This document shows positions 5,296 to 36,512 of a stretch of DNA of 38,762 nt, in pieces. The position numbers and the translations under genes are program-made. Position 1 is the first letter of the stretch. Every line of letters starts with the position of its first letter. The notes below the pieces were generated by a model that ran no database searches, was not told where the DNA came from, and saw only the letters and a list, made by a program, of their open reading frames with translations. The DNA is taken from positions 1 through 38,762 of IMG/VR virus record IMGVR_UViG_3300025030_000256; one strand, written 5' to 3'. The stretch comes from a virus.

Positions 5296-5555
5296 GGTAC
5301 GGGGTACGAGTCCTAACTTTCTTATTGTCGATGACTGCCTTCATGAAGAGCGCCATGTTCGCGTCCTGGTCGTGGGTACGGGGCGAGTCGGAACCGTATC
5401 GGCCTGCATCGCAGCACATATCAGGAACTCACCTGAGCTTTCAGCACTCGTTCAGTTTTCGGAGGAACCCGAGAGCGCCGAGGAACGGGAAGATGAAGGG
5501 CAACCGGCTTGCCACTTCCCGAGCTACGAGAGCGAAGCACCGGGGGAAGAGATGA
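5292..5555 (+). CDS. Small unknown protein with hydrophobic N-terminus (87 aa)
   Basis: Not recognised. ATG 5292 overlaps the preceding stop as ATGA and has GGGAGGGG just upstream; its own stop overlaps the next ATG (5552) in the same way. This unbroken overlap chain is the reason for choosing this frame over the longer alternative frame 5285-5776. The N-terminus (VRVLTFLLSMTAFMKSAMFA) may be a signal or membrane segment; the C-terminal half is basic and Arg/Ser-rich, ending RAKHRGKR. No homologue comes to mind. Confidence 0.5.
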   Translation: MRYGVRVLTFLLSMTAFMKSAMFASWSWVRGESEPYRPASQHISGTHLSFQHSFSFRRNPRAPRNGKMKGNRLATSRATRAKHRGKR

Positions 5556-33617: not shown

Positions 33618-33922
33618 AAGGTAACAAGAACTCCGCTTCGGAGGACATGCTCGGTACTCTGCACAAAGCTGTCACCACGGCGTTCACCCGCAGGGTAGAT
33701 GACATGCTGGAGAAGTGCGTCGAGGCACCGGACGAGATACAGTTCATCATTGATGAGAAGTTCTTGACCGCTGCTTCTAACTTCTTACACAAGAACGAGA
33801 TAGGCGCAAGCCTGCCTGAGCAGAATGAGGCATCGCCGCTGGCGGTCTCTCTCGCTGCGGTCAAGGCGAAGCACAGCGGCAAAGTCCTGAGCTTCACCGA
33901 CAGGGAGCAAGCGACTGGCTAG
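33614..33922 (+). CDS. terS: Small terminase subunit (102 aa)
   Basis: DNA-recognition part of the packaging motor. Assigned by position directly before the large subunit, size (T7 gp18: 89) and all-helical charged make-up (AFTRRVDDMLEKCVEAPDEI, AASNFLHKNEIG, SLAAVKAKHSGKVLSF). ATG 33614 overlaps the holin stop. Its 3' end overlaps the start of the large terminase frame by about 8 bp and contains that gene's likely ribosome site (AGGGAG, 33902-33907). Confidence 0.82.
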   Translation: MKGNKNSASEDMLGTLHKAVTTAFTRRVDDMLEKCVEAPDEIQFIIDEKFLTAASNFLHKNEIGASLPEQNEASPLAVSLAAVKAKHSGKVLSFTDREQATG

Positions 33923-34133
33923 ACTCTCAGCGGAGCAGCAGTTAGCTCTCTGGCAATCTTTAGAAGAGGTGCAGGAGACCTTCCCTAATACGGAGGAGGG
34001 TTTCCTGCTCTTCGCCCAAGTAGTTATCAACACGCTCATCACAGGCAATCCGAGCCTGAACAGGTTGCAGGCAGACATGTGCAAGTACCTGTTCGGCGGG
34101 CCGCTCTACCGGATGCTCCAAGCACAACGAGGT
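33915..34133 (+). CDS. terL: Large terminase subunit, exon 1 (73 codons, likely CTG start)
   Basis: N-terminal part of the packaging ATPase-nuclease. The frame opens at 33891 and contains no ATG, GTG or TTG before 33969; CTG 33915 stands 7 nt after AGGGAG and is the best start, giving L/M-ARLSAEQQLALWQSLEEV and on to LNRLQADMCKYLFGG. The exon ends PLYRMLQAQRG, the first half of the P-loop, immediately followed in frame by a stop codon that belongs to the intron. Spliced to exon 2 it restores QRGQAKTT. The spliced protein would have 613 residues, in the range of phiKMV-type large terminases. Confidence 0.85.
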
Positions 34134-34889
34134 TAGTAACTTGGCTTCGTAATCACACTCAAACAGGGAACACCCTACATGGGCAATCCTGACTAGAATG
34201 GAATTATCCTATATGGAGAATTGTATGTACAAGAAAGCAAACATTGAAGTAACAAACAGAAGTGGACATGAGTACTCAGTTGATACTAACGGGGTTGTGG
34301 TTAACGAGACCACAGGGCACATACTTGAAGGCAGGCTGAAGAACGGATACCACTTAGTCTGTATCAACCAGAAGTATCACCCAACCCACCGGCTTGTAGC
34401 CCTAGCGTTCTTACCTACAGACAGCAGCAGGCCCTATGTTAATCACGTTGATGGGCGTAAGTCTAACAACCATGTGAGCAACCTTGAGTGGTGCAGCCAC
34501 CAAGAGAACATGAGACATGCAGCAGATACAGGGCTTTGGGTTAAGAAGATAGGACTAGAGCACGGTAAGTGCAACACAACTGAGGTGCAGGTAAGGATTG
34601 TATGTGATCTTATGGAGAGAGGTAAGAACTGGCGGTATATCAAGAACCTCTCAACCATGACAAGGAACACCTACCTGAACATACGTAGAAGGGCCACTTG
34701 GACTCATATTTCTTGTGAATACAAATTCTAGTGCAACGACTATCCCGAAAGGGAGTACACCACAAGCTAATGGTGGTGGAAACGTGTGACTGTCTATAGG
34801 ACAGAAGATATAGTCTACTCTGCATGGTAACATGCAGAAGTTCTATAAAGAGAACTGGCGAGGTATTGCGAACCTCTCTGAATATAATG
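34134..34889 (+). other. Group I intron in large terminase gene (756 nt)
   Basis: Self-splicing intron. P1: exon end ACGAGGT (34127-34133) pairs with guide GCTTCGT (34144-34150), giving the required U-G pair at the 5' splice site (U34133, G34144). P10: CTTG (34140-34143) pairs with exon 2 start CAGG (34890-34893). P7: GACTAT (34738-34743) pairs with ATAGTC (34810-34815), in the classic AAGATATAGTC context. P8-type hairpin CTGTC/GACAG (34790-34804). P9 hairpin CTGCATG-GTAA-CATGCAG (34820-34837) with a GNRA loop. The intron ends in G34889. An HNH endonuclease gene occupies 34225-34731. Splicing joins the two terminase frames in phase. Confidence 0.92.
34225..34731 (+). CDS. Intron-encoded HNH homing endonuclease (168 aa)
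   Basis: Spreads the intron by cutting intronless terL alleles. HNH_3 core: THRLVALAFLPTDSSRPYVN, HVDGRKSNNHVSNLEWCSHQ, ENMRHA. The N-terminal part NRSGHEYSVDTNGVVVNETT is a NUMOD4-like domain and the C-terminal half (CDLMERGKNWRYIKNL) looks like a helix-turn-helix. ATG 34225 has GGAG 6 nt upstream; in-frame ATGs at 34198 and 34213 are less favoured. It is markedly more A/T-rich than the flanking exons. Confidence 0.93.
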   Translation: MYKKANIEVTNRSGHEYSVDTNGVVVNETTGHILEGRLKNGYHLVCINQKYHPTHRLVALAFLPTDSSRPYVNHVDGRKSNNHVSNLEWCSHQENMRHAADTGLWVKKIGLEHGKCNTTEVQVRIVCDLMERGKNWRYIKNLSTMTRNTYLNIRRRATWTHISCEYKF

Positions 34890-36512
34890 CAGGCTAAGAC
34901 CACTATCACAGCGATCTATGCCGTCTTCCGTATCATCCATGCACCGCATACCCGCATCCTCATCTTCTCTCAGAAGGGCAAACGTGCCGAGGAGATAGCA
35001 GGCTGGTGCATCAAGATCATACGTGGGCTTGAGTTCTTGCAGTTCATGCTTCCTGATAAGGCTTCAGGTGATAAGGAGTCAGTCAAGTCCTTCGACATCC
35101 ATTGGGCGTTGAAGGGTGCTGACAAGTCTCCGAGCATAGCGTGCGAGTCCATCGAGGCTGGAGCGCAGGGTGCCCGTGCTGACGTGCTCATTGCTGATGA
35201 TATTGAGTCCTTGCAGAACTCCCGCACAGTAGCAGGCCGGGAGCTGCTTGAGGACACCAGCAAAGAGTTTGAGTCAATTTGTACTCATGGTGACATCATC
35301 TACTTAGGTACGCCTCAGAGCATTGAGTCTATCTACAACAACCTACCCTCTCGCGGATATGACATACGAATCTGGCCGGGGAGGTATCCGAACTCTAAAG
35401 AGCTAGACACATACGGTGGCTACTTAGCCCCGATGCTCTTGTCTGACATAGAAGAAGACGACACCTTGCAGTTGGGTGGCGGATTCGATGGGCTATCTGG
35501 TAAGCCCACCTGCCCTGAGATGTTCGATGAAGAGACGCTCCGCACCAAGGAGCTGTCGCAAGGTAAGGCTAAGTTCCAGTTGCAGTATATGCTGAGTACC
35601 CGCCTGTCGGATGACGGAAGATTCCCGCTCAAGCTCTCTGACCTTATCGTGTATGGCTACAGCCGGTTGCAAGGACCGGAGATGCCTATCTGGGCCAGTG
35701 GCCCCGGTCAGATCATCAACGAGCTGCCTAAGTTCGGGAACAGGACCACTGACAAGTTCCATATGCCTATACAGCGCGTCTATGAGTGGAAGCCCTTTGA
35801 TCGGGTCATCATGTACATAGACCCCGCTGGTGGTGGAAAGAACGGAGACGAGACGGCGTATGCCATCATAGGTCTCATTGGCACCTTTGTCTACATCTTG
35901 GACTCTGGTGGATTCCCCGGCGGGTACGAAGAAGAGACTCTGATGAAGTTCGTTGAGGCAGCTAAGGCAGCGAACTGCAAGACCGTTTACATAGAGAAGA
36001 ACTACGGGCATGGCGCTCACTCCGCTATGCTCAAGCCGCTGTTTGAGAAGCACTGGCCCGTTACCATCGAAGAGGTGTACGAGACAGGCCAGAAGGAACT
36101 CAGGATCATAGACGTTCTTGAGCCACTCATCAGCTCTCACCGGCTCGTTGTGACACCTGATGCAGTGCGCCGGGACTTGGACTCAACTGCCCGCTACGCG
36201 CTGGAGAAGCGCCTACGGTACAGCTTGTTCTTCCAGTTGGCGCACATAACGCGGGACAAGGACTCCCTGTTCCACGATGACCGACTAGACGCACTGGCGG
36301 GTGCCGTGCGCCAGATCGTACAAAGCATCGACTACGACATGGCCCGAGTTGTGGCGGCTCAGCAGGCCGAGAAGTACAAGGAGTTCCAGCGGGTGTGGCG
36401 CGACAAGGAGCTGCGGAGAGAGTCGATTTCCGGGCACTCCTCGGCCCCGCACCGGCCCAATAAGAACATATTCGCCAAGACCGGCCCAAAGGTCGGAAAG
36501 CGGAAATGGTGA
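34890..36512 (+). CDS. terL: Large terminase subunit, exon 2
   Basis: C-terminal 540 residues of the packaging motor. Starts QAKTTITAIYAVFRI, completing the P-loop begun in exon 1. Walker B is VLIADDIES, the coupling motif IYLGTPQS, and the nuclease domain has MYIDPAGGGKNGDETAYAII, VYIEKNYGHG and HDDRLDALAGAV, carrying the metal-binding Asp residues. The sequence is close to phiKMV-type terminases. Without splicing, only a protein lacking the P-loop could be made (the ATG at 34824 lies in the intron), so splicing is essential for packaging. Palindrome copy 7 follows the stop by one base. Confidence 0.95.
   Translation, partial: QAKTTITAIYAVFRIIHAPHTRILIFSQKGKRAEEIAGWCIKIIRGLEFLQFMLPDKASGDKESVKSFDIHWALKGADKSPSIACESIEAGAQGARADVLIADDIESLQNSRTVAGRELLEDTSKEFESICTHGDIIYLGTPQSIESIYNNLPSRGYDIRIWPGRYPNSKELDTYGGYLAPMLLSDIEEDDTLQLGGGFDGLSGKPTCPEMFDEETLRTKELSQGKAKFQLQYMLSTRLSDDGRFPLKLSDLIVYGYSRLQGPEMPIWASGPGQIINELPKFGNRTTDKFHMPIQRVYEWKPFDRVIMYIDPAGGGKNGDETAYAIIGLIGTFVYILDSGGFPGGYEEETLMKFVEAAKAANCKTVYIEKNYGHGAHSAMLKPLFEKHWPVTIEEVYETGQKELRIIDVLEPLISSHRLVVTPDAVRRDLDSTARYALEKRLRYSLFFQLAHITRDKDSLFHDDRLDALAGAVRQIVQSIDYDMARVVAAQQAEKYKEFQRVWRDKELRRESISGHSSAPHRPNKNIFAKTGPKVGKRKW

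Follow-up and report, generated by a model that had tools for sequence, protein, structure and literature searches.

Group I introns have been described in the large terminase gene (terL) of several phages, namely LL-H of Lactobacillus (1995) and Moonbeam, SIOphi and phiAGATE of Bacillus, often together with a homing endonuclease, and the SIOphi TerL intron splices in vitro (PMC4299906, PMC11878797). The window, i.e., the whole viral DNA of 38,762 nucleotides analysed here, likewise carries a group I intron in terL, but it represents a T7/SP6-like podovirus, whereas those phages are of another type. Within the Autographiviridae, terL of Klebsiella phage Kpp-61 is also split around a homing endonuclease, with an RF00028 match of 60.5 bits, although that intron lies downstream of Walker A, near a nuclease-domain site at about residue 395. 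Escherichia phage ULINTec6 (Autographiviridae) shares both the ribozyme family and the HNH family (40% amino acid identity) with the window, but its intron resides in the primase/helicase gene rather than in terminase. The td intron of T4 resembles the intron described here in its IA2-type layout, having P7.1/P7.2 and carrying its endonuclease ORF in the P6 region, but it encodes a GIY-YIG enzyme and interrupts the thymidylate synthase gene. In the part of the literature accessible to searching, no paper described an Autographiviridae terminase gene with a group I intron at its Walker A codons, and no split at codon 81/82 was found in GenBank phages among the best 60 of 60 + 1371 terminase records. 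While terL group I introns are thus already known in phages, the window is a clear and well-bounded further case: almost certainly a mobile, IA-like group I intron that houses an HNH endonuclease gene in the loop of P6 and interrupts a T7/SP6-like terminase gene at its Walker A codons. Sequence comparison establishes the insertion site, structure and horizontal spread, whereas splicing and cleavage are inferred.

The interrupted terminase gene is laid out as follows.

33915 to 34133, plus strand: exon 1 of the terminase large subunit, 73 codons to QRG, from in-frame alignment to L002-L021 and T7 gp19 homologues
34134 to 34889, plus strand: group I intron of 756 nt, delimited by empty sites, occupancy of the same codon in relatives, RF00028 and covariation
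34890 to 36512, plus strand: exon 2 of the terminase large subunit, 540 codons from QAKTT plus the stop

Exon 1 ends in CAACGAGGT at 34133, the intron ends in AATATAATG, and exon 2 opens with CAGGCTAAG, which sets the insertion point between G81 and Q82 of a deviant Walker A loop (QRG/QAKTT). An earlier note on this DNA had proposed exactly this P-loop insertion, and its boundaries and length were indeed found to be correct. In blastn, many phage terminases without an intron align from exactly 34890 onward (query position 1291), and empty sites at the same codon occur in L007-L014. Two of these, L007 and L008, encode an uninterrupted terminase that is 94% identical in protein sequence, and their site reads CAGCGAGGG followed directly by CAGGCC. 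Four other viral contigs (L002-L005) carry the same intron in the same codon.

Joining of the exons as CGAGGT-CAGGCT yields a full-length terminase frame with QRGQAKTT restored, such that clean removal of the insert would restore the host gene. The joined protein aligned over 511 residues to the solved terminases 8dgc (E 2e-88) and 4bij (7e-76), DNA maturase B, and it possesses the Walker A, Walker B and RNase H-like nuclease domain of T7-type large terminases (PF22530, 4.2e-37). Since QRGQAKTT aligned on the FRGIGKS Walker A loop of both structures, the insert sits between the P-loop glycine and the catalytic lysine segment. In the unspliced frame, TAG TAA follows directly after exon 1 (...QAQRG) and leaves a 73-residue fragment; thus, an intact terminase is predicted to need splicing, in agreement with the dependence that had been claimed before. 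The exon 1 frame is devoid of ATG, GTG or TTG at the conserved start (window 33888-33922). By homology the start codon may be CTG 33915, which is preceded by GGGAG and overlaps the end of the small terminase gene, but this assignment is uncertain; in L007 the corresponding position is occupied by TTG. L007 also contains two extra ORFs between its small and large terminase genes (L007:2045-2782, ~740 bp), which are absent from the window and do not appear endonuclease-like by eye.

The secondary structure of the intron was then assembled from its two halves, which flank the endonuclease ORF.

34127 to 34150, plus strand: P1, exon bases 34127-34133 (ACGAGGU) with 34144-34150 (GCUUCGU), 7 bp, U.G at 34133/34144
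34140 to 34143, plus strand: P10 guide CUUG, 4 bp with 3' exon bases 34890-34893 (CAGG)
34153 to 34158, plus strand: P3 5' strand, paired with the 3' strand below
34164-34167 with 34188-34191, plus strand: P4, from structure check and covariation alignment
34173-34175 with 34181-34183, plus strand: P5, from structure check and covariation alignment
34192-34199 with 34725-34732, plus strand: P6, the loop of which houses the HNH ORF
34738-34743 with 34810-34815, plus strand: P7, invariant in relatives
34744 to 34753, plus strand: P7.1 hairpin
34758 to 34778, plus strand: P7.2 hairpin
34784 to 34789, plus strand: P3 3' strand, paired with 34153-34158
34790 to 34804, plus strand: P8, three pairs changed on both sides
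34805 to 34809, plus strand: J8/7, AAGAU (inspection and script)
34820 to 34837, plus strand: P9 (inspection and script)
34840 to 34855, plus strand: P9.1 (inspection and script)
34860 to 34876, plus strand: P9.2 (inspection and script)
34889, plus strand: terminal G (inspection and script)

All elements listed in the earlier note, namely P1 with its U.G pair, P10, P7, P8 and P9, were recovered by inspection and script, and P3, P4, P5, P6, P7.1, P7.2, P9.1 and P9.2 were added to them. A P7 with a paired G-binding core together with the P3-P8 domain identifies the element as group I, and the presence of P7.1 and P7.2 between P7 and the 3' strand of P3, kept in the relatives in spite of differing sequence, places it in subgroup IA. 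The U34133.G34144 splice-site pair and the last intron base G are present in all five introns. P10, on the other hand, is short and poorly kept in the relatives, in which the pairing is weaker and one guide base is missing or different.

The introns of the window and of L002-L005 were aligned for covariation analysis over 54 named pairs. Standard pairs filled 99.2% of the cells, compared to 31-40% in slid versions of the structure. Both sides had changed in eight pairs, where shuffling would predict 1.7 (none of 500 shuffles reached 8) and the slid versions gave 0-1; however, with so few introns, and with L002-L004 nearly the same as one another, only about three independent sequences stand behind these counts. 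The two-sided changes were located in P1, P3, P5, P6, P7.1 and P8; for example, 34130/34147 in P1 goes from A-U to U-A in the relatives, P3 contains a C-G to U-A change, and P5 shows C-G to U-A in L005.

The covariance-model search that the earlier note had proposed for 34134-34889 returned a group I match (RF00028, E 1.5e-5), but only the 3' half was covered (34590-34837), at 30.3 bits against the gathering score of 50, and the whole window gave no Rfam match at the gathering threshold, which is a curation threshold and not a structural feature. The low score is explained by the HNH ORF, which splits the core in the P6 loop; moreover, the 5' half of the match is wrong, because the true one is located on the other side of the ORF, 500 nt upstream. 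The same gathering score was exceeded by the homologous introns of L034, L003, L022 (Kpp-61) and L010 and by a second intron of L002. We also built our own covariance model (R1), for which the introns of the window, L002 and L005 were used after removal of their ORFs, and searched it on 26 sources. It matched both halves of the window intron, itself one of the training sequences; across the 26 sources it matched intron-bearing loci only, with independent introns scoring high, and intronless terL loci gave no match. Overall, the helices, the covariation, the RF00028 match and the empty sites together bear out the group I identity originally proposed. The sub-threshold Rfam score, and the one guide base unlike that of the relatives, could also be taken to mean that the ribozyme has decayed and that the terminase is dead or a split gene. 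We consider this very unlikely, as all helices are intact with compensatory changes, the HNH frame is open with its catalytic region kept, exon 2 is full-length, and terminase is essential in this T7/SP6-like phage type. We regard the intron as real and very likely functional.

The loop of P6 holds a single long reading frame.

34225 to 34731, plus strand: HNH homing endonuclease ORF, 168 amino acids from ATG 34225, GGAG upstream; mechanical ORF start 34198

Its stop codon lies within the 3' strand of P6. The protein matched Pfam HNH_3 (PF13392, 5.8e-7) and phrog_59 (2.5e-33), and residues 14-104, with the HNH core, matched I-HmuI (PDB 1u3e, E 1.7e-11), an HNH homing endonuclease encoded by the intron in the DNA polymerase gene of SPO1. 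The prediction that the insert encodes an HNH endonuclease was thus substantiated by these three matches. The two enzymes are alike in the HNH core, but the C-terminal part is unmatched and the target gene is different. No relative of the protein was found in the bacterial and archaeal genomes searched. ORF callers report this HNH gene plus a truncated terminase starting at 34824, as would be the case if there were no intron and a freestanding HNH gene disrupted terL, with ribosomal bypass or a split protein making up for it. This can be virtually dismissed, considering the ribozyme core, the exact empty site and the boundaries conserved in five loci; furthermore, ATG 34824 falls within the stem of P9 and, by inspection, lacks a Shine-Dalgarno-like sequence. 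A freestanding HNH gene adjoins an unrelated terminase in L006, which was left out of the homing evidence.

Comparison of full and empty sites argues for the mobility of the intron. Between the window and L002-L005, the non-coding parts of the intron are 78-83% identical and the HNH proteins 76-78%, whereas the flanking terminase segments share only 49-65% (protein). The introns of L002, L003 and L004 are 98.9-100% identical in all parts, compared to 71-79% for the exons beside them; because near-identical introns lie in diverged exons, recent horizontal homing is indicated rather than descent. The GC content is 0.41-0.46 in the intron versus 0.55 in the exons. The intron phylogeny is thus out of step with the host gene, and full and empty sites coexist, as is characteristic of mobile introns and as had been suggested from the position alone. 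A search of viral contigs with a pattern of intron end plus exon 2 returned only the L002-L004 contigs again. Identity between the window and L007 is 79% in exon 1 and 85% over 34890-35590, and then rises to 96-98%, so that the drop spans 33840-35590. A tract replaced beside the intron by co-conversion during homing may account for this drop; ordinary mosaic recombination is a possible alternative, and the upstream divergence continues into other genes.

Taken as a homing intron, the element would work as follows. The transcript would fold, exogenous G would attack after U34133, the 3' OH of the exon would attack after G34889, and the exons would join with restoration of QRGQAKTT. The HNH protein would be translated from unspliced RNA and would cut or nick terminase alleles that lack the intron, at their conserved Walker A codons; repair would then copy the intron into the cut allele. 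The earlier note had further suggested that splicing could delay packaging until late in infection. On such a reading the intron would double as a timing switch, with slow or regulated splicing releasing the packaging ATPase only late. A hypothesis of 'molecular-on-switches' has been published for Bastillevirinae, in a study that did not decide between a role as a switch and one against competitors, and in which all the forms observed for SIOphi TerL were spliced (PMC11878797). Close relatives of the window live without the intron, and the terminase would already be a late gene by position, judging from T7-like gene order. No regulatory element or other sequence sign of regulated splicing was found. 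The window was also scanned for promoter-like repeats.

1837, 4153, 8667, 9827, 15329, 18759, 36534, 36650, 38732 and, weaker, 3480, plus strand: copies of AAACCCGGACTATAG, from the repeat scan

These ten copies (up to 3 mismatches, mostly TAACCCGGACTATAG) compare with 0.5 expected by chance and probably serve the phage's own RNA polymerase as promoters; none falls within the intron. A tRNA search of the window found none. The delay was not borne out, and we regard a timing role as quite improbable.

The same ribozyme family extends to other genes and to other sites in terL. The R1 model matched the primase/helicase intron of ULINTec6 (L033) at 119 bits and that of an oyster-associated phage at 123 bits, as well as the structural-gene loci L028 and L029. 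The latter two contain two group I introns each, with HNH relatives 38-52% identical, and their intron genes adjoin the apparent head-tail connector/portal and scaffold/capsid region. In terL, a second intron of L002 (L002:2250) lies directly after the Walker B LIADD, and introns at L003:2409 and L010:3942 lie after the nuclease motif IDPAG, all above the Rfam gathering score; L004 (match at 5541) and Kpp-61 have an intron in the same stretch as the IDPAG site, its location being approximate. That these further introns, too, sit in catalytic motifs is what one would expect of endonucleases directed at conserved codons (see the review PMC3984707). A broader proposal, to which we give only a slim chance, is that terL of T7/SP6-like phages has at least three sites (Walker A after G81, Walker B after D185 and nuclease IDPAG after G395), each in a catalytic motif, that are recurrently taken by different homing introns, up to two per gene, whose splicing could gate the packaging motor.

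At this locus, a full site, an empty site and a near-identical intron in diverged genes make the homing pattern complete by comparison, and the codons at which the intron is inserted belong to the most tightly constrained in this essential phage enzyme. From ORF callers alone the locus would appear as an HNH gene beside a truncated terminase, and the default Rfam threshold misses the intron. The pattern of three sites in catalytic motifs offers a testable set for asking whether the endonuclease target alone determines where such introns settle.
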